From assembly GCA_014058405.1 (NCBI GenBank), contig CP047423.1, positions 3,456,501 to 3,520,500 of the forward strand: 64,000 bases of DNA, read 5' to 3'. A program made the translations under genes and the position numbers. The stretch is from Candidatus Nitrospira kreftii (GTDB lineage: Bacteria; Nitrospirota; Nitrospiria; Nitrospirales; Nitrospiraceae). Numbering within the stretch: the first letter of the stretch is position 1; every line of letters begins with the position of its first letter. Shown in pieces: positions 12,236 to 64,000 of the stretch. Below the pieces are notes generated by a model. That model saw nothing but the letters and a program-made list of their open reading frames with translations. It did no database searches and was not told the origin of the DNA.

Positions 12236-13861
12236 ATGAATTCGATTCTCTACATTTTTCTTCCCTGCAAGAAAGTCTATCCTATCGGAGTCACCTATAT
12301 CGCCGACTTTATTCATCGGCGGAAACCGGACGTTCGCCAGCGGATTCTCGACCTGTCTCTATTCCCTGTTGCACAACGAAAGCAGGCCATTCTCGACGCG
12401 GCCACTGAGTGCATGCCGAATCTGGTGTGTTTCTCTTGGCGTGACATTCAGATCTTTTCGCCGCATGAAGGCGACTCGTCGTTGGAGCATGCCTTCAATT
12501 TCTACTTTGCCAGCAACCCGTTCAAGCGGATCACCGCGTCATTCGCCGGCGTCAAGCAGCTTTATCGCTACTACAATCACATCAATACCATCCTGTCGTA
12601 CCCTGCGTTGGTCCGCAAGGAGTTCCCTAGGGTTCAGATGATGATCGGCGGTGGAGCGTTTACGGCCTTTGCCGATCAATTGATCGAAAAGCTTCCTGAA
12701 GGGACCATCGGGATCCTCGGCGAGGGGGAGGACGCTATCCTCAAGATCATTGAAAGTCGCTCGATCGAGGACGAACGCTACATTATCAAAGAAGGAAATC
12801 AAATCCGGAAAGGCCGGCAGGCATCTCCGGCACTTCTTGAATCATCGCCGGTGGATCTTCCCTATCTCACATCGATTTTCCCCCAATATAAGGAATATGC
12901 AGACGAATCCATCGGCGTACAATCCAAACGAGGATGCCCCTATGACTGCTCTTTTTGCCTTTACCCTTACATAGAAGGCAAGCGAGTGCGCTACCGGCCA
13001 CCTGAAACAGTCGTGAAAGACATCGCTCAGCATTATCATCAATGGGGTACCCGTCGATTCTGGTTCACAGATGCGCAATTCATCACCGGGAAGGAAGCCT
13101 ACCCGCAATGTACTGAAATTCTTGAGCGGATCGTCGCGGAGAAACTTGATATCGAGTGGTCCGGCTATATCCGCACGTCATTAATTACCTCAGAGCTCGC
13201 CAAGTTGATGGTGCGGTCGGGCGTCGGCGATCTGGAGGTGGCCATCACGTCCGGTTCGCAAGAAGTACTGAACAATTTGCACATGGGGTTCAAACTTGAA
13301 CGGCTCTATGACGGCTGTCGCTATCTGGCAGAGGCCGGCTTTAAAGGCAAGGTCATTCTGAACTACTCCCTGAATAGCCCCAAGGAAACGGAAGAGAGCC
13401 TGCTGCAAAGCGTCGAATCGTACAAGATGGTGGCGTCGATTCTTGGAGAAGAGCGTGTCTTCCCGTTGATGTTCTTTCTGGGCATCCAGCCCAATACCGA
13501 TCTGGAGCAGCGACTGCTAGAAGAAGGTTATTTATCCGCGGGTTATAATCCCCTGATGCTGACACCGACCAGTATCAGGAAATTACTCTATAACCCTGCC
13601 CCACTGAATAAGATTATCGCTAAGGCCTGTCTTCGGGCATGGGAACGAAAGCAGGGCAGCAGTGATCCTCGTCGATGGACAGGCTCACTCTCGCAATCGA
13701 CCACCCCATCATCGACCTATGCCGACCAGAACCTCAGTCGAGGAATGGAAGGCAACTCGGGTCGAGATGCTCTTTTATCGTTGGAAGAGATCCTTGCTTC
13801 GCGGCGACGAGCTTCATCCCCTTCGCAGGCGACAGAGCCAAGAACAAGCTCAGCCGGGTGA
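12236..13861 (+). CDS. B12-binding radical SAM protein
   Basis: This 541-residue protein combines an N-terminal cobalamin-binding-like domain (about residues 1-200, starting with YIFLPCKKVYPIGVTYIADF) with a radical SAM core. The cluster motif is C234-PYD-C238-SF-C241 after SKRG, followed by RYRPPETVVKDIAQ and the barrel segments RFWFTDAQF and EWSGYIR. The last 90 residues are Ser/Arg-rich and probably disordered. B12 radical SAM enzymes methylate unactivated carbons or rearrange substrates, and the substrate cannot be read from sequence. It follows ubiE by 76 bases and may be cotranscribed, so a lipid or quinone substrate is possible. That is inference. No clear ribosome site precedes the ATG, and the next gene starts 198 bases on. 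Confidence 0.82.
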   Translation: MNSILYIFLPCKKVYPIGVTYIADFIHRRKPDVRQRILDLSLFPVAQRKQAILDAATECMPNLVCFSWRDIQIFSPHEGDSSLEHAFNFYFASNPFKRITASFAGVKQLYRYYNHINTILSYPALVRKEFPRVQMMIGGGAFTAFADQLIEKLPEGTIGILGEGEDAILKIIESRSIEDERYIIKEGNQIRKGRQASPALLESSPVDLPYLTSIFPQYKEYADESIGVQSKRGCPYDCSFCLYPYIEGKRVRYRPPETVVKDIAQHYHQWGTRRFWFTDAQFITGKEAYPQCTEILERIVAEKLDIEWSGYIRTSLITSELAKLMVRSGVGDLEVAITSGSQEVLNNLHMGFKLERLYDGCRYLAEAGFKGKVILNYSLNSPKETEESLLQSVESYKMVASILGEERVFPLMFFLGIQPNTDLEQRLLEEGYLSAGYNPLMLTPTSIRKLLYNPAPLNKIIAKACLRAWERKQGSSDPRRWTGSLSQSTTPSSTYADQNLSRGMEGNSGRDALLSLEEILASRRRASSPSQATEPRTSSAG

Positions 13862-14038: not shown

Positions 14039-14055
14039 GCGCCTTAAGGAGGCGC
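14039..14055 (+). promoter_or_regulatory. Hairpin enclosing the ribosome site of the USP fusion gene
   Basis: GCGCC (14039-14043) can pair with GGCGC (14051-14055). The AAGGAGG ribosome site (14046-14052) lies partly in the 7-base loop and partly in the 3' stem, four bases before the ATG. A second perfect hairpin (ACGGGC-ATTA-GCCCGT, 14013-14028) stands just upstream. Together they could limit translation initiation. The effect is inferred. Confidence 0.4.
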
Positions 14056-14059
14056 CCTG

Positions 14060-16132
14060 ATGTATAAGACTATCTACATTCCGGTCGATAATTCCGACCA
14101 TTCCAATACAGCGGTAGACGTCGGTGTCCACTTGGCAAAGACCTTCGGCTCGAAGATCGTGGGAAGCCATGTCTATGCCGCCAAGATGCATGACAAGCGG
14201 TTTAAGCAGATGGAAGCCGGCTTGCCCGAGGAATACCACGATGAAAAGGAACTTGATCGCCAGCGTCAGATTCACGACTCCCTGATCACCCGCGGGTTAC
14301 AAATCATCACCGACTCCTATCTCGACTACGTCGATAAAAAATGCACGGAGTCCAATCTTCCGATAGAGCGACGATCGCTTGAGGGGCGAAATTGGAAAGT
14401 GCTGGCTGAAGACATCAACACCAACGGGTATGACCTGGTCATCATGGGAGCTTTGGGAGTCGGCGCGGTCAAAGACAGCGTGATCGGCAGCAATACCGAA
14501 CGTGTTGTCCGACGAGTCCGTAACTCCGACATGTTGATTATCAAGAATATTCAACCGCTGACGGGTGGCAAGATCGTGGTGGCGGTCGACGGAAGCCCTT
14601 ATTCGTTCGGCGGGCTGATGACCGGGCTTGCCCTCGGCAAAGCCTTCAATATGCCGGTGGAGGCGATCTCAGCCTTTGATCCGTATTTCCATTATGCCGC
14701 CTTCCACAGTATTTCCGGAGTGCTCAACGAAGAGGCCGGCAAGGTGTTCCGATTTAAAGAGCAGGAAAAGCTTCACGAAGAAATTATCGATAGCGGCTTG
14801 GCAAAAATCTACCAATCTCACTTAGACATCTCCCGAGAAATTGCGCAAGCCGAACAAACCGACGTGAAAACGACTTTGCTCGACGGAAAAGCGTTCGAGA
14901 AAATCATTCAATATGTCCGCAAGGACGTCCCTGCCTTGTTGATCGTGGGACGCATCGGCGTCCATAGCGATGAGGACATGGACGTCGGCAGCAACACCGA
15001 AAATCTACTCAGGAGTGCGCCCTGCAACGTCCTGGTCTCCAACCGCAAGTATGTCCCGCCGATCGATACCCAAGCGGAATACACGATTGCCTGGACGGAA
15101 GAGGCGCTGAGACGGATGGAAAAGATCCCTGTTTTTGCGAGAGGAGTCGCCAAAACAGCGATTCATCGATATGCCATTGAAAAAGGACATACGATCATCA
15201 GCAACACGGTCGTAGACGCCGCAGTCGGACATATTTTGCCGAAAGGCGCGATGGACGCCATGCGGGCGCTTGGCGGGAATCTCGATGCAGCCGGTATCAA
15301 CCGAGACCAAATGCAGGCCGACGAGGCCGTGACCAAAGATCTCATGGGACCGACGTTGAGCGGGATCATGACCCAGATCGTGGAGGAAAAACCGAAACAG
15401 ATCGATGCGGGCACTCAGGCCTATCTGGACCGCATGGGTCAAACATATTTCGTCTGCGATGGCTGCGGCTACATCGGCAAGGGTGACACCCCGGTCCGAT
15501 GTCCGGTGTGTAGTGCCGACGGGACAAAGTTTAAACAAGTCGACAAGAAGATTTTTGAAGTGGCGGCGACATCCGAAGGCGAACTGGAGACCGATGTCGC
15601 CTACGATGACGTGCCGATGCAATGGACCAAGGATGCCAAAGAAGCGATCCGTGCCGTTCCGGCGGGCTTCCAACGAAGACGGGCGAAAGCGAGAATTGAA
15701 AAAAGCGCGCGTAAGTTGGGCATGACAACCATCACGCTCGAATATGCCGCCCCGATGATTACGGAAGCCGCGGCGGAAGACTATACCCCTATTTTCTCCA
15801 ATAAAGGCACCGGCACACCAGCGGTGGTGGAAGCCGCGTCTGAATCTCCGAACACTGGTGGCAATGGCTCAAACGGACCGGCTGAAACCGATTCAGCGTA
15901 TCGTTGGACGGATGAAGCACAAGCCAGATTGGATCGAGCTCCTGAAGGCTTCATGCGAGATTGCACGAAAGCGCTGATTCTCAAGCACGCTGAAAAGATT
16001 GGAGCGACCATGATCACGATCGAGGTCGCCAATGAGGGCATCGAGCAGGCCAAAGGTTACATGGCAGAAGCTATGAAGACCGGCAATCTCAAAGATATGA
16101 TCGCTGACCTCACAGGTAAAATCAGCACATAG
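14060..16132 (+). CDS. Two-domain universal stress protein fused to PCP_red and rubredoxin-like modules
   Basis: This 690-residue fusion has six modules. Two universal stress protein domains lie at about 1-165 and 170-325; each ends in a nucleotide-site pattern (GALGVGAVKDSVIGSNTERV; VGRIGVHSDEDMDVGSNTEN). Three PCP_red-like domains start at Trp345 (WTEEALRRMEKIP), Trp522 (WTKDAKEAIRAVP) and Trp616 (WTDEAQARLDRAP). Between the first two is a rubredoxin-like zinc/iron ribbon with Cys466, Cys469, Cys481 and Cys484. In BchB/ChlB the PCP_red domain closes over the substrate near an iron-sulfur cluster; its role outside chlorophyll synthesis is unknown. The combination suggests a redox or stress sensor. 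The ribosome site AAGGAGG is enclosed in a hairpin. The radical SAM/PCP_red gene follows after 92 bases. Confidence 0.88.
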   Translation: MYKTIYIPVDNSDHSNTAVDVGVHLAKTFGSKIVGSHVYAAKMHDKRFKQMEAGLPEEYHDEKELDRQRQIHDSLITRGLQIITDSYLDYVDKKCTESNLPIERRSLEGRNWKVLAEDINTNGYDLVIMGALGVGAVKDSVIGSNTERVVRRVRNSDMLIIKNIQPLTGGKIVVAVDGSPYSFGGLMTGLALGKAFNMPVEAISAFDPYFHYAAFHSISGVLNEEAGKVFRFKEQEKLHEEIIDSGLAKIYQSHLDISREIAQAEQTDVKTTLLDGKAFEKIIQYVRKDVPALLIVGRIGVHSDEDMDVGSNTENLLRSAPCNVLVSNRKYVPPIDTQAEYTIAWTEEALRRMEKIPVFARGVAKTAIHRYAIEKGHTIISNTVVDAAVGHILPKGAMDAMRALGGNLDAAGINRDQMQADEAVTKDLMGPTLSGIMTQIVEEKPKQIDAGTQAYLDRMGQTYFVCDGCGYIGKGDTPVRCPVCSADGTKFKQVDKKIFEVAATSEGELETDVAYDDVPMQWTKDAKEAIRAVPAGFQRRRAKARIEKSARKLGMTTITLEYAAPMITEAAAEDYTPIFSNKGTGTPAVVEAASESPNTGGNGSNGPAETDSAYRWTDEAQARLDRAPEGFMRDCTKALILKHAEKIGATMITIEVANEGIEQAKGYMAEAMKTGNLKDMIADLTGKIST

Positions 16133-16224: not shown

Positions 16225-17619
16225 ATGAGCAAATCCCTACCCATTTTCAACGGCTCTGCACTCCCTGGCACACTGGGAGCATTTCAACAACACATTACGC
16301 AGTTCCTGACTCCCACTCCGAAATCGGATGGCCCTTTCGACGGACGAACCGTCGATGACTTCAAGCCTTACCTCGTCGCGCTGAACCTAACGAAGCGTTG
16401 CAACCTTAAATGTGACCACTGTTATCTCGATGCGACAACGAAAGCAGCCGGTGGAGATGACGAGCTCAACACGGACGAATGCTATCGTCTGATCGACCAG
16501 ATCGCCGAAGTCAACAAAGGCTGTCTGTTGGTCATCACTGGTGGCGAACCGCTAGTCCGGCCAGACATTCTCGATATTGCTCGTTATGCCGTCAAACTAG
16601 GCTTTATGGTGGTCTTTGGTACCAACGGCATGTTGATCAACGATCAATTGGCCAAGACCCTTGTGGAAATCGGTGTGATGGGTGTCGGCATCAGCATCGA
16701 TTCTTTGGAGGCTGTCAAACATGATGCCTTCAGAGGGGTACCAGGAGCCTGGGAAGCGGCGATAGCCGGCATCGAAGCAAGCAAACGAAATGGGCTCCAG
16801 TTTCAAATACACTTCAGCGCTCAGCCGATGAACTACCAGGAACTCCCGGATGTTATCGAGTGGGCACATCAGCTCGGCGCTCGTGTCTTGAACGTCTTTT
16901 TCATGGTGTGCACGGGACGAGGAGAAGAGTTGACCGACATTACACCTGCCCAATACGAAGAAGTGTTGGGCTACCTGGTTGAATGCCAAGACAATTACAA
17001 AGGCATGCTGGTTCGTGCTCGCTGTGCCCCACACTTCAAGCGACTGGCCTATGAGAAAGACCCCAACTCTCCAATCACCAAGGCCACTGGATACATGGGG
17101 GGAGGTTGCCTTGCAGGTACGAACTACGCCCGCGTGACACCTAATGGAGAATTGACCCCCTGCCCCTATATGCCGCTCTCTGCAGGGAACGTGCGCCAAC
17201 ATAGCTTCGTTGATCTCTGGGAACAGTCGGACGTTTTCAATTCTTTCCGGTATCCCCAGCTCAAAGGGAAATGCGGCGACTGCGAATACACTGATATCTG
17301 TGGCGGCTGCCGCGCTCGTCCCTATGTCGACCATGGGGACTGGTTGGATGAGGATCAGTGGTGCCTCTATACTCCCAAAGGTGGTGAAAAGATCAAAGTC
17401 GCTTTCAACGTCGCGGAAGAATCAGAAATGTCCTGGGATGAGGCATCTGCGCTCCGACTGAGTCGGATCCCCTATTTCCTGCGCGCAATGGTGAAAAAGG
17501 GTGTGGAGAAACATGCCCGTGAAAATAACATCCCTCTTATTACCATAGAATTGATGGACGAGCTGCGCAAGAAACGCTTTGGCAACGACATACCCATCTT
17601 CAAGCCTCGTACGGAGTAA
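16225..17619 (+). CDS. Radical SAM/SPASM protein with a C-terminal PCP_red domain
   Basis: This 464-residue protein has a radical SAM core with the cluster motif Cys59-xxx-Cys63-xx-Cys66 (KRCNLKCDHCYLDA), the GGEPLVRPD motif and the GISIDSL strand. A SPASM-type auxiliary cluster region follows: GGGCLAGTNYARVTPNGE, LTPCPYMP and GKCGDCEYTDICGGCRARP. The last 60 residues are a PCP_red domain starting at Trp404 (WDEASALRLSRIPYFLRAM). The core resembles the haem-pathway enzymes NirJ/AhbC/AhbD and peptide-modifying SPASM enzymes. A tetrapyrrole substrate would fit the PCP_red fusion, but this is inference. The gene follows the USP fusion gene and precedes a CopD-like protein, all on the plus strand. 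The ribosome site is weak. Confidence 0.88.
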   Translation: MSKSLPIFNGSALPGTLGAFQQHITQFLTPTPKSDGPFDGRTVDDFKPYLVALNLTKRCNLKCDHCYLDATTKAAGGDDELNTDECYRLIDQIAEVNKGCLLVITGGEPLVRPDILDIARYAVKLGFMVVFGTNGMLINDQLAKTLVEIGVMGVGISIDSLEAVKHDAFRGVPGAWEAAIAGIEASKRNGLQFQIHFSAQPMNYQELPDVIEWAHQLGARVLNVFFMVCTGRGEELTDITPAQYEEVLGYLVECQDNYKGMLVRARCAPHFKRLAYEKDPNSPITKATGYMGGGCLAGTNYARVTPNGELTPCPYMPLSAGNVRQHSFVDLWEQSDVFNSFRYPQLKGKCGDCEYTDICGGCRARPYVDHGDWLDEDQWCLYTPKGGEKIKVAFNVAEESEMSWDEASALRLSRIPYFLRAMVKKGVEKHARENNIPLITIELMDELRKKRFGNDIPIFKPRTE

Positions 17620-17688: not shown

Positions 17689-18198
17689 ATGGATACTTTC
17701 CAGAGCATTTCCACGGATCTCAATATCCTCATTCCGATCATCAACCACTGGCTTCACCTCCTCTCAGCAGTCATTTGGATTGGAGGCTTAGCATTTCTTG
17801 TCATGGCAGTCGCTCCAGGACTGCAGAAAGCCGTTCCAAAGGATCAGATCAAGCCCATCACAGACATTTTTTATCAGCACTACAAAAAGGTTGCTGGTAT
17901 TCTCCTGCTCGTGCTGTTGTTCACCGGAGGTGTGAATCTTCACTACGTCAATCAGGTCATCGTTTCACAAACTGGGAACGGGGTCCAGCACCACGCCAAA
18001 TACCTCATGGTCTTTATGATCAAGCTGCTTCTCGTGCTCGGCCTCCTCACGTTATTTCTTTACACCGTCATCTTTAGATCCGAAGACGAAGCCGACGAAG
18101 GAGAGACCTACGAGGTTATCCCATTCCAGAGAGCCGCGCTTTGGATGGGTTTTTTCATCATTCTCTGCGCAGCCGGTATGAAACACCTGCACCAATAA
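17689..18198 (+). CDS. CopD-like four-helix membrane protein
   Basis: This 169-residue membrane protein has four predicted helices: about 22-45 (HWLHLLSAVIWIGGLAFLVM), 65-85, 100-125 and 146-163. His residues at the helix ends (HWLH, QHY, HHAKY, KHLHQ) could bind haem or copper, as in CopD-type and cytochrome b561-like proteins. It lacks the long CopD N-terminal helices, so it is a minimal version. It lies 69 bases after the radical SAM/PCP_red gene and in the same direction, so a shared operon with the two PCP_red fusions is likely. The ribosome site before the ATG is poor. The function is unproven. Confidence 0.7.
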   Translation: MDTFQSISTDLNILIPIINHWLHLLSAVIWIGGLAFLVMAVAPGLQKAVPKDQIKPITDIFYQHYKKVAGILLLVLLFTGGVNLHYVNQVIVSQTGNGVQHHAKYLMVFMIKLLLVLGLLTLFLYTVIFRSEDEADEGETYEVIPFQRAALWMGFFIILCAAGMKHLHQ

Positions 18199-18313: not shown

Positions 18314-19084
18314 TTACTTGGAGCGATTCAAACCGAGAGCCCGCTTGAAGACCGTGGCGAATCCAAAATAGCCGAAAGAATCTTTGAGGTTTGAGTAGAG
18401 CCGCTTCACCGTTCCCATCTCTGGATTGGTGACATACTCCATCGTCAGCGCAATCCGCTCCTCGCCCTCGCCGAGAGGCGTGACGGCATGCCAAAGCTTG
18501 TCACCGTTGAAAATCACCATGTCTCCCGGCTCAGTCACCAGTTCAAGATGGCGTGGCTGTTTCGTCGGGTGGTCCTTAAATAGTTCGCACACTAGCTTGC
18601 ACTGAGTCGATCGATCAACGAGCCCCATGAGAATCGTATAACGAGCGCCTTTGTAGTACGACGTATCGTAGTGAAAGCCGATGTGGTCACCCGGTTCCGT
18701 ATAATAATAGAGTGCGCACGAATGGGGATCGTTATCCGGGCAGAACATCAGCTTGGCTTCGACCAGACGGTTCAAGAACTCCCTGAATGATTGCGAACGG
18801 TAGAGTTCGAGAAAGAGCGGAGCCTTCTCCTGAACCGTGTAATAGCTGACACTTCCGCCTTTTTTATGCCCTGGAATGTAATTGCGATTCAGCTCTGCTT
18901 TGGCGCTCTGGGCCTGTGGAACAAGCATGTCCTCCACAAATGAGCGCGGCAAGAACTGTTTGATGACCAAAAACTCATTTTGTTCCCAATACTCGGTATG
19001 GAGCCGTTCGAACTCCAATCCAGCCACGGCCCGATTCACAGCTTCCGTGACCGTACCCGCATGACTCGCTACCGCTGTACTCAT
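18314..19084 (-). CDS. 2OG-Fe(II) oxygenase family protein
   Basis: This 256-residue protein is of the 2-oxoglutarate/Fe(II) dioxygenase (phytanoyl-CoA hydroxylase/2OG-FeII) fold. The iron ligands are His138 and Asp140 (GFHYDTSYY) and His199 (DKLWHAVTPLG), and Arg210 (EERIALTMEY) probably holds 2-oxoglutarate. It shares the fold with hydroxylases of lipids, small molecules and proteins; the substrate is unknown. The ATG at 19084 is preferred over an in-frame upstream codon because AAAGGA precedes it. It starts 45 bases downstream of lolA and may be cotranscribed. A 13-base tandem duplication (TGACGTGGGTTAC, 18292-18317) overlaps its stop codon. Confidence 0.8.
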   Translation of the reverse strand: MSTAVASHAGTVTEAVNRAVAGLEFERLHTEYWEQNEFLVIKQFLPRSFVEDMLVPQAQSAKAELNRNYIPGHKKGGSVSYYTVQEKAPLFLELYRSQSFREFLNRLVEAKLMFCPDNDPHSCALYYYTEPGDHIGFHYDTSYYKGARYTILMGLVDRSTQCKLVCELFKDHPTKQPRHLELVTEPGDMVIFNGDKLWHAVTPLGEGEERIALTMEYVTNPEMGTVKRLYSNLKDSFGYFGFATVFKRALGLNRSK

Positions 19085-19129
19085 TCTCTGTCCTTTACCG
19101 GCCGACGACCTGGAATCTGCGACCACTCT

Positions 19130-48058: not shown

Positions 48059-49054
48059 TCACAGACTTCCTTCACCCTTGAGGTACTTGCGGAAACGACC
48101 CATCAGTTCAGCGCCTAGGGTCCCCCCTTCAGGTTTCTTCGTCGAAGGATCGGCAAAATGTCCTCGAATTTCCTGGAGCCGTTTCTCAGCCTGATCGTTG
48201 CCCTGTAAGCGCTTTGTTTTCTGCAGAGCAGTGTCAAAAGCCTCAAACGTCAATTCCTGATACCCAAAAGAGCGGATACGTTTAACCGCTTTCATCATAG
48301 CCTGATTTCGAAACGTCGTCAGATGGTCGGAGTCGATCTCTTTAAGCCCCAGCTTACGAGCGCGCCGCTCAGCTGCTTTTCTGATCCCACTTCGCACGAA
48401 ATCGGGAGACGTCTGGAGCCGCTTCCATGCTTCATCGGACCACGCGACTCGTGCCTGAGGGGCATCCCACAAGTCGAGTAAGGTTGATTCGTCAATACGA
48501 GTCAGTTGCCGCTCCCTTGCAAGATCTTCGGTATCTCGCCTCAACATATCAGTGACAAAATCCAGTGCAATGGGCGGCGATTGCTTTACTTTTTCCTCGA
48601 GCCGCGCAAGCGCCCCCTCAGTCCATACCATAGGAGGCCCAATGTCCTCGTGAAGGTCGCCAAGCGCTTCAACCTTTTCGAACAGCTCAACATTGACCTC
48701 GAGATGTCCTCGCTCTTTTGCGATCTCCTCCGCAATCTGCTTGATCATCGCGCGCATAAATTCGGGAACCGTGGCCAAGCGTTCTTTCGCCGCCGCGGTC
48801 CATGGGAGACGACCTTCTACCATCTCTTCAACGGCAGATGCCATTCCAGCTTCACCCCCCATACGCCCCATCATTTGGCCTTTAAACTGCTCGAGAATTT
48901 CTTCCGTAATCTCCTCATATCCTAATTCCCTTGCTTTCTTTTCAGCCAAACGACGAACCATGCCGCGCAAGAAGAGAGGAGCGCGCTCCATACGTTTGAG
49001 CGCACCATCAGTCCAGCGAATTTCGGTAGCAGCGGAAGGCAAAGAATCCGACAT
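48059..49054 (-). CDS. Four-repeat PCP_red-domain protein
   Basis: This 331-residue protein is built almost only from PCP_red-like repeats. They start at WTDGALKRMERAPLFLRGM (about 13), WTAAAKERLATVPEFMRAM (about 87), WTEGALARLEE (about 143, longest and most divergent) and WSDEAWKRLQTSPDFVRSG (about 208). Each has Trp-Ser/Thr, an Ala, a Pro-x-Phe turn, Arg/Lys clusters and a closing ITxE/IDS. The N- and C-terminal ends add a helix (about 260-310, AMMKAVKRIRSFGYQELTFEAFD). No Cys cluster or catalytic domain is attached. The start is ATG at 49054; a TTG lies one codon upstream. It is next to ihfB, 30 bases downstream of it. Confidence 0.85.
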   Translation of the reverse strand: MSDSLPSAATEIRWTDGALKRMERAPLFLRGMVRRLAEKKARELGYEEITEEILEQFKGQMMGRMGGEAGMASAVEEMVEGRLPWTAAAKERLATVPEFMRAMIKQIAEEIAKERGHLEVNVELFEKVEALGDLHEDIGPPMVWTEGALARLEEKVKQSPPIALDFVTDMLRRDTEDLARERQLTRIDESTLLDLWDAPQARVAWSDEAWKRLQTSPDFVRSGIRKAAERRARKLGLKEIDSDHLTTFRNQAMMKAVKRIRSFGYQELTFEAFDTALQKTKRLQGNDQAEKRLQEIRGHFADPSTKKPEGGTLGAELMGRFRKYLKGEGSL

Positions 49055-49086
49055 CAACCTAGGCCTTTTCCAGGAATTTCAAATCT

Positions 49087-62999: not shown

Positions 63000-63728
63000 T
63001 TACATGAACTTCATGAACTTGTCTTTGGCCTCATCCATGACTTGCGCCGTGATGGTCGACACCCCACGTTCCTTGGCCATCCGCTCCACCTCTTTGCGAG
63101 CCATCGGGCGGATGAAATCAGGGATATTTTCAAGCCGTTGTTCTGCCTCCCGCGACCACGTCATACCCTCGGGCGAATAGTTCTTGGAATCGTCCATTAC
63201 TTGCAGCGTGATCGTGTTGAATCCGCTATTACGCGCATAGGTTTCCACACTGCTTTGGACCATCGGTTTCACGAAAACCGGAAGGCGATCGAGTTTTTCC
63301 TTCGCGTCAGGCGTCCAGGTGAATTCCGATGCAGCAGAGCCACCGTTCGCGGGCTTACCGCTCGCCGTCAACCCCATCTCAGCGACCATGGCAGAGAATG
63401 GACACCCACTTGCTTTCTCGGGAGCCTTGGCAGGCGACACCGCCGTGGCAGCCACCGTTGGTGTAGGAGAACTCGGTTTCGGCGAGGCGGCAACTTGGCC
63501 ATTCTCCCCGAGTGCGCGCAACCCTTCCATGGACGTTTCCGGCGCGGACTTCGGGCTCAGCTTCAGCCCCAAGGAATTCATCATGTTGGTTTCGCCGGCA
63601 TTGGTCACCATCGAGAATTTCGCGCTACAGGACGGGCAGGCGAAAAAGACTCCAAGCGAACCTTCCTCCGGCTTCTCTACTTTCTCGAGGCTCATATATG
63701 TTTCGCAGTTCAAACAGACAAATTTCAT
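63000..63728 (-). CDS. Zinc-ribbon protein with two PCP_red domains
   Basis: This 242-residue protein has an N-terminal zinc ribbon with two CxxC pairs, Cys5-LN-Cys8 and, about 20 residues later, ACPSC, in the frame MKFVCLNCETYMSLEKVEKP...FFACPSCSAKF. A Pro/Ala/Ser-rich linker (about 60-120) follows; it contains KASGCPFSAMVAEMGL. Two PCP_red-like repeats then begin at WTPDAKEKLDRLPVFVKPM (about 139) and WSREAEQRLENIPDFIRPM (about 194), ending ITAQVMDEAKDKFMKFM. The ATG at 63728 has GAGGAG about six bases ahead, preferred to upstream codons. It is followed by a strong terminator, so it is monocistronic. Confidence 0.88.
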   Translation of the reverse strand: MKFVCLNCETYMSLEKVEKPEEGSLGVFFACPSCSAKFSMVTNAGETNMMNSLGLKLSPKSAPETSMEGLRALGENGQVAASPKPSSPTPTVAATAVSPAKAPEKASGCPFSAMVAEMGLTASGKPANGGSAASEFTWTPDAKEKLDRLPVFVKPMVQSSVETYARNSGFNTITLQVMDDSKNYSPEGMTWSREAEQRLENIPDFIRPMARKEVERMAKERGVSTITAQVMDEAKDKFMKFM

Positions 63729-64000
63729 AAAGACTCCTCTAGCAGTCACTCCGCAAGGGTTGGACGAAAGACTACGCTATCATATGGATTTTCAAGGAGT
63801 CAAACCGCTGGGAAGGCAAAAGGCACTGATGCCCCCTTATTCAAGTCCAGTGCTCACTGACCTCTCCCACACTTGCATCTGGGCCTTGCGGTGAGGCCTA
63901 ACGGTCCGCTATGCATCATCGAACCAATGCGATTACACTACATAATCTCGCGATGAATAGAATATGTTTTGCCCTTAAGTATGAGCGATGAGATCCTTCC
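63729..64000. other. Right end of the window, upstream region
   Basis: These 272 bases hold no gene that I can support. They are the upstream region of the zinc-ribbon/PCP_red gene. Several plus-strand frames run through but look like shadows of that gene or of nothing. The sequence after 63890 is AT-rich and could be a promoter region of a gene outside the window. Confidence 0.4.

Follow-up and report, generated by a model that had tools for sequence, protein, structure and literature searches.

What might a bacterial protein do that joins two universal stress protein (USP) domains, three PCP_red modules and a rubredoxin-like four-cysteine ribbon in one chain? The question is raised by an open reading frame (ORF) of Candidatus Nitrospira kreftii, located at positions 14060–16132 (+) of a 64,000-nucleotide stretch of contig CP047423.1 (3,456,501–3,520,500 in contig numbering), the whole of which is called the window below. 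The ORF starts with ATG, encodes 690 amino acids and ends with TAG; a Shine-Dalgarno-like AAGGAGG was located by direct reading at 14046–14052 (+), with 7 bases between the end of the motif and the start codon. The order Usp-Usp-PCP_red-ribbon-PCP_red-PCP_red, which an earlier sequence-only reading of the window had proposed, was borne out by Pfam, as was the placement of the ribbon between PCP_red copies 1 and 2. Comparison with relatives showed that the fusion gene and the neighbouring gene at 16225–17619 (+) occur nearly always together and that their products have PCP_red in common. In the reading that we favour, and to which we give about an even chance, the fusion protein is a dedicated non-catalytic partner of the neighbouring enzyme, and the pair handles a tetrapyrrole destined for respiratory heme proteins.

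Conservation of the fusion gene and its pairing

All 59 order-level relatives gave some match to the fusion protein, and 57 of them gave strong matches, most of which were full length and 70–97% identical. Genomes G053 and G054 had weak matches only, and G038 contributed only a piece at a contig edge. Ortholog identity was 86–97% inside the genus; over the whole order, the longer matches were about 66–82% identical. The strong orthologs in 57 of the 59 relatives indicate that the ORF is no accident; this conservation ruled out a chance or misassembled reading frame. A phage origin was likewise rejected, as the gene had no match in the phage collection.

The partner gene encodes a radical S-adenosylmethionine (SAM)/SPASM enzyme of the AhbD/NirJ2 branch (464 amino acids; Pfam and NCBIfam), which ends in a PCP_red module of its own (17434–17568 (+), residues 404–448; Pfam). 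The same tail was found in all 112 partner homologs above 200 bits and 350 amino acids. Fusion homologs at E ≤ 1e-25 were present in 139 of 295 genomes sampled from Nitrospirota: 134 genomes carried both genes, five the USP gene only, two the enzyme gene only and 154 neither, counts compiled by hand from related genomes that are not independent of each other. The tailed enzyme was scored from loci in G188, G205, G218, G225, G227, G285, G316, G271 and G088; in the last two the contig ends inside the enzyme gene, leaving the tail itself out of view, and the genes of G079, G236 and G249 are incomplete as well.

Distant USP-only homologs, used to scan the genome collection, retrieved 56 loci, the records of which bear the labels Nitrospirota/Nitrospirae, Nitrospinota, Aquificaceae, Deltaproteobacteria, Thermodesulfobacteriota, Chloroflexi, Rokubacteria, Planctomycetota and, in one case, a "Clostridia" metagenome-assembled genome. 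The USP protein carried PCP_red in 24 of them. Of these loci, which lie outside the order, 50 have 1.3 kb or more of downstream sequence; 38 of the 50 had a PCP_red-tailed enzyme gene at a distance of no more than 1.6 kb, and these belonged to several phyla.

The sequence-only reading had found no textbook precedent for the domain order. The order is indeed unusual; the joining of USP and PCP_red, however, has been published for Methanomicrobiaceae, where a USP domain linked to the same C-terminal domain (LI-POR_suB-like_C) is described as an unusual automatic annotation (PMC12159084). The available description of those proteins, by which alone they were compared, mentions no ribbon, no multiple PCP_red copies and no partner enzyme. 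No paper describing the fusion protein or the pair was found in the open literature, as judged by titles, abstracts and passages and with subscription papers outside the search. What is new is that the fusion has a conserved partner in a radical-SAM enzyme of the heme branch. Both USP and PCP_red are widespread domains whose function is poorly known, and a near-obligatory pairing with one radical-SAM branch provides a concrete, testable handle on both.

Domain architecture of the fusion protein

The N-terminal half consists of two Usp domains, which were delimited by Pfam, the alignment of homologs and an AlphaFold2 (AF2) model. Domain 1 covers residues 1–165 (14060–14554 (+)) and domain 2 covers residues 168–330 (14561–15049 (+)); Pfam recognized Usp in both stretches (2.4e-32, 112.8 bits against a cut-off of 24). 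Domain 1 is marked by invariant H37, H44, E52, R69 and H72 and the nucleotide motif G130/G133/G143, and domain 2 by invariant D207, H211, Q235, H239 and H302 and the motif G297/G300/G310. In 129 distinct USP homologs, D10, H37, H44, F48, E52, R69 and H72 of the first domain, as well as D207, H211, F215, Q235, H239 and H302 of the second, were kept in 127–129 sequences, with the six histidines (H37, H44, H72, H211, H239, H302) invariant in 128–129. The motif glycines G130, G133, G143, G300 and G310 were present in all 129 and the motif serines S144 and S311 in 117 and 120, respectively. Gx2Gx9G(S/T) is the pattern that we take to be the USP ATP-binding motif.

The AF2 model, built from 35 sequences, had a mean predicted local distance difference test (pLDDT) score of 77.6 overall and values mostly above 90 in residues 1–335; stretches of low confidence were 403–453, 495–515 and 576–611. 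The model has a tandem-USP fold, with Z scores of 28.3 against Rv2623 and 28.2 against ATP-bound TTHA0350; residues 3–328 matched 3ab8 with a Z score of 28.2 and a root-mean-square deviation of 2.5 over 255 aligned residues. Both domains having the Gx2Gx9G(S) motif and the predicted fold resembling that of an ATP-bound protein, the earlier suggestion of a nucleotide-binding USP pair appears sound. No PCP_red or rubredoxin structure was among the matches listed for the full-length model, where USP domains fill the list, which makes this result uninformative for the C-terminal half.

The fusion core thus shares with the tandem USPs TTHA0350, Rv2623 and UspE a two-Usp chain, the nucleotide motif and the fold (Z 24–28 over residues 1–333), while being only 14–19% identical to them in the structure alignments. 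It differs from them also in two long inserts with family-invariant histidines, in the C-terminal PCP_red/ribbon extension and in the near-constant partner enzyme. The inserts, which carry H44–H72 and H211–H239, look family-specific, since the four alignments with PDB sequences are mostly confined to the halves with the nucleotide motif and largely leave the inserts uncovered.

The C-terminal half contains three PCP_red (PF08369) copies, located at 15092–15223 (+) (residues 345–388, or about 344–386 in a second delimitation), 15620–15751 (+) (residues 521–564) and 15902–16033 (+) (residues 615–658). Together they scored 111 bits (2.7e-32) against a Pfam cut-off of 32.5, and the single copies scored 54.3, 41.6 and 36.0 bits. 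A profile of PCP_red copies, which also supported the assignment of copy 1, matched 2L09, 2KRU and the C-termini of BchB/ChlB in the PDB at about 1e-8 to 1e-11, with nothing else at E ≤ 0.01. The module is thus held in common with protochlorophyllide reductase; in contrast to that enzyme, the fusion protein has three PCP_red copies and no nitrogenase-like catalytic domain (PF00148) in the Pfam search, by which its identification as a protochlorophyllide reductase subunit was ruled out. The NCBIfam BchB models matched the tail alone, with 62–70 bits against cut-offs of 490–509. No role for PCP_red was found in a paper's passages on BchB (PMC7948495).

The four-Cys ribbon lies between the first and second of these copies at 15449–15535 (+) (residues 464–492). 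Its cysteines (C466, C469, C482, C485; CxxC-x12-CxxC), to which the sequence-only reading had drawn attention, were invariant in 18 of 18 aligned copies. A wider Cys4 tally (69 of 88) counts the window's own protein more than once, together with one fragment (L005). When each segment was submitted to domain search, Usp and PCP_red exceeded their cut-offs, but RUBY_RBDX, at 24.1 bits, fell short of its threshold of 26.5. A profile of the 18 ribbons matched rubrerythrins in the PDB at 2e-6 and also nigerythrin, other rubredoxins and some zinc fingers; the lowest E-value belonged to the zinc-finger protein 2i13 and was discounted, being due to a short repeated motif. The top Foldseek match of a 53-residue single-sequence model (mean pLDDT 72.8) was rubrerythrin 1nnq (E 0.12, probability 1.00), closely followed by LapB and Zn-ribbon proteins, and there was no match at E ≤ 0.001. 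We therefore call the ribbon rubredoxin-like, and by score not a member of the RUBY_RBDX family. It has the cysteine spacing of the rubrerythrin C-terminal domain and rubredoxin-type ribbons, and rubrerythrins are among its top profile matches; unlike rubrerythrin, the fusion protein showed no diiron rubrerythrin domain in the Pfam search.

The architecture of the window protein belongs to a graded series in Nitrospirota, which was followed through 40 loci (L055–L094). The smallest members are Usp-Usp proteins of 330–389 amino acids, followed by Usp-Usp-PCP_red (401 amino acids), Usp-Usp-PCP_red-PCP_red (463–562 amino acids), the form of the window (614–701 amino acids) and, finally, proteins of 873–919 amino acids with three four-Cys ribbons and five PCP_red copies. 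L084, which was scored as lacking PCP_red, stops at a contig end. The ribbon was present in all 20 class loci (L055–L074) and in L076–L077 and was absent from L075 and L078–L094. Because many relatives are Usp-Usp-PCP_red(n) proteins without a ribbon, the core function of this family cannot lie in a coupling through the ribbon, such as the direct link between energy state and metal or redox state that the sequence-only reading suggested.

Two proteins of Chloroflexi have a further N-terminal part. In one of them (L144:1824–3758), a weak PNPOx_N match (23.2 bits, cut-off 28.1) precedes Usp-Usp-PCP_red on the same chain; the other (L119:6281–8194) is similar in length and layout (about 640 amino acids, with an extra N-terminal part) and has no PNPOx match.

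Possible functions of the pair

Tetrapyrrole chemistry is indicated because the near-constant neighbour of the fusion gene encodes a radical-SAM enzyme of the AhbD/NirJ2 type that itself ends in PCP_red. AhbD is described as converting coproheme to heme b, and NirJ as removing propionate side chains in heme d1 synthesis (PMC7242693; PMC10548856). In the favoured reading, the partner enzyme would likewise modify an iron porphyrin at its side chains, and the tetrapyrrole would probably be heme or a heme precursor. The tandem-USP core is predicted to bind ATP, and the inserts with the invariant histidines may hold a porphyrin or a metal as ligand. PCP_red, present on both proteins and also on subunit B of protochlorophyllide reductase, might serve for mutual docking or for holding the tetrapyrrole, and the ribbon would be an addition with a structural or electron-transfer role. 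ATP binding by the USP part would gate delivery or assembly, and the product would be used in respiratory heme proteins, for example bd-like oxidases.

The neighbourhoods of the pair in other lineages are consistent with such recipients. The neighbour clusters were built from greedy ORF calling instead of annotation. In L090, the pair stands beside cytochrome bd-like subunit I, c-type cytochromes and a molybdopterin oxidoreductase, in L087 and L088 beside an ethylbenzene-dehydrogenase-type subunit and cytochrome c, and in Magnetobacterium (L094/L100) it is followed by cytochrome cd1, a NirJ-type protein and siroheme decarboxylase; a NosZ-type protein lies near the pair in L101, and HemY (304 bits, cut-off 97.85) directly after it in L078. 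Genes of bd-like oxidases were found in 17 of the 56 loci (636 kb in total), against about one expected from the density in the window genome (7 PF01654 matches in 4.13 Mb), an enrichment that serves as a guide only, the loci being related and densities varying among genomes. A transcriptome study reports that Nitrospira, Nitrospina and anammox bacteria share a conserved gene cluster in which a bd-like oxidase is joined by an alternative NxrC and two cytochromes c (PMC6606698), and the neighbourhoods of the pair in deeper lineages resemble this cluster as described there. The bd-like genes adjoin the module in deeper lineages and another PCP_red gene in the genome of the window.

The highest-scoring NCBIfam models for the partner were NirJ2 (324 bits) and AhbD (320 bits), both with a cut-off of 500. 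The cysteines of the CX3CX2C motif were present in 66 of 67 aligned partners and eight further cysteines in all 67. All 11 positions are also cysteines in four AhbD-like proteins of Nitrospirota, whereas one NirJ differs at four. These AhbD-like proteins, whose matches in the search for partner homologs end before the PCP_red tail, reach just 443–452 bits with the AhbD model, and the cut-off of 500 is for this reason strict for Nitrospirota. The partner thus resembles AhbD (heme b synthase) and NirJ2 in its radical-SAM and SPASM parts and the AhbD-like proteins in its cysteine set; it differs from AhbD and NirJ2 in falling under both cut-offs, in the additional PCP_red tail and in its separate branch. 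In the tree, the window enzyme stands apart from the AhbD-like sequences, and three Nitrospinota partners, which score 455–459 bits with the AhbD model, group with them (support 0.996). The enzyme is not simply AhbD, since G164 and G261 hold both the tailed enzyme and an AhbD-like enzyme of 444–445 bits; it is probably a paralog with a job of its own. A further difference from AhbD is that its companion, the siroheme decarboxylase AhbA, was found in none of the 12 relatives searched, the window genome included. Together with the score under the cut-off, this excluded the partner as an AhbD of the siroheme pathway.

The pair could be an oxygen-independent coproheme decarboxylase, equivalent to AhbD, with its carrier, acting as a low-oxygen backup of HemQ/ChdC, the peroxide-dependent enzyme of the coproporphyrin pathway. 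HemY and HemH are adjacent in the window genome, and a PF06778 (HemQ/ChdC/chlorite dismutase) protein was found in all 59 relatives; the only one typed (L169) scored 129.7 bits with the HemQ_actino model, under the cut-off of 235. HemF was found in none of the 12 relatives searched, and HemN_C proteins were found in all 12, with the two that were typed both being HemW, so the final steps of heme synthesis probably run through HemY and HemH and then coproheme, a route that would not need AhbA. An AhbD equivalent would fit this background, as well as the 11 common cysteines, the scores of the Nitrospinota partners, the HemY gene after the pair in L078 and the published placement of ahbD with hemY/hemH/hemQ or ahbABC (PMC10548856). 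The 320 bits of the window enzyme, the genomes G164 and G261 with both enzymes and the separation in the tree speak against it, however, and we consider it rather unlikely.

Comparably doubtful is a regulatory sensor, in which the USP part would read ATP or the energy state, the PCP_red/ribbon part would read redox state or metal, and the protein would switch the partner enzyme or a respiratory complex on or off. This transfers the coupling proposed in the sequence-only reading to the neighbouring enzyme. It would agree with the ATP-site motif in both USP domains, the four invariant ribbon cysteines and the CRP/FNR-type regulator that adjoins the pair in some loci. Several UspA-family proteins encoded next to electron-transport operons are, moreover, reported to rise under low oxygen in Nitrospira marina, in a passage that does not identify the fusion protein (PMC8115632). 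Many family members, however, have no ribbon, and a pathway component would explain no less well why the protein is paired with one enzyme across phyla.

Many SPASM enzymes modify peptides or proteins, and the PDB sequence matches of the partner include PqqE and SkfB; a peptide- or protein-modifying enzyme with the USP/PCP_red protein as its substrate-presenting adaptor, and with no link to tetrapyrroles, is nevertheless quite improbable, because NCBIfam ranks NirJ2 and AhbD first and well over the peptide maturases, and because cd1, NirJ, AhbA and HemY occur among the neighbours.

Several observations weigh against a dedicated partnership in tetrapyrrole handling. Besides the five USP-positive genomes without the tailed enzyme, 12 of the 50 loci with sufficient downstream sequence had no adjacent partner (L108, L124, L126, L132, L133, L135, L137, L138, L143, L147, L149 and L150). 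The partner falls below the cut-off of every NCBIfam model listed, and we infer its substrate from its branch and its neighbours only; the AhbD-like enzymes that G164 and G261 hold in addition to it count here as well. Apart from the partner and a small membrane protein (see below), the genes immediately around the fusion in the window are neither heme nor respiratory genes. Finally, heme b can on paper be made without the partner, most likely via coproheme, because HemY, HemH and a HemQ/ChdC-type protein are present; as the sole route to heme b the partner was rejected, given the PF06778 protein in every relative.

An extension of the favoured reading, which we put forward only tentatively and consider rather unlikely, is a tetrapyrrole-supply system not described so far. 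An ATP-gated USP/PCP_red carrier would bind heme or coproheme through the invariant histidines and hand it to the AhbD-like enzyme through the matching PCP_red modules; the product, possibly a modified heme, would pass into respiratory complexes, which in Nitrospira and its relatives would be bd-like oxidases and alternative nitrite-oxidoreductase complexes. If true, this would give universal stress proteins a defined role in cofactor handling and PCP_red a function outside photosynthesis.

Other PCP_red genes and neighbouring genes

The window genome (one contig of 4.13 Mb) contains 12 PCP_red matches in five genes, which are the fusion gene, its neighbour, two additional window genes and a gene at 995 kb. 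PF08369 has been counted as a photosynthesis-related family in genome screens for phototrophy (PMC12815261). The presence of five such genes here suggests that PF08369 is not by itself a marker of phototrophy. One of the two additional window genes (48059–49057 (-)) encodes a 332-amino-acid protein with four PCP_red copies and no other Pfam domain. The other (63000–63749 (-); 249 amino acids) combines an N-terminal CxxC...CxxC stretch with two PCP_red copies and lies near YebC and RuvA genes. The gene at about 995.3–995.8 kb (L154:2278–2778) is Cys-rich, has two PCP_red copies, precedes a cytochrome bd-like oxidase gene by about 1.2 kb and lies beside a DUF420 membrane protein.

In class-level relatives, a multi-PCP_red gene occurs directly after the radical-SAM partner (e.g., L069:4988–6034). 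The partner itself reaches 730 amino acids with three PCP_red stretches (Pfam) in L078:5714–7906, where HemY follows; multiplied PCP_red copies are a feature of both the enzyme and the USP protein. Genes weakly similar to the radical-SAM partner stand after it in two Nitrospinota loci (L123:6377–7612 and L134:9775–11256), the latter copy having no NCBIfam match at E ≤ 1e-40.

The gene at 17689–18198 (+) encodes a small membrane protein with CopD- and DUF4149-like matches, both under cut-off. It is likely a third member of the module, since it follows the pair in many class loci. A gene family with a weak PNPOx_N match (cluster "c4") is a frequent neighbour of the pair. Upstream of the fusion gene, 12236–13861 (+) encodes a radical-SAM protein with a weak B12-binding match, which is nearest to the slr0320 model "photosystem II high light acclimation" (442 bits, cut-off 775) and is also found upstream of the fusion in L058 and L074. 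On the opposite strand, 18314–19126 (-) encodes a 2OG-Fe(II)-type enzyme, for which Pfam gave a Halogenase D match of 36.4 bits against a cut-off of 26.

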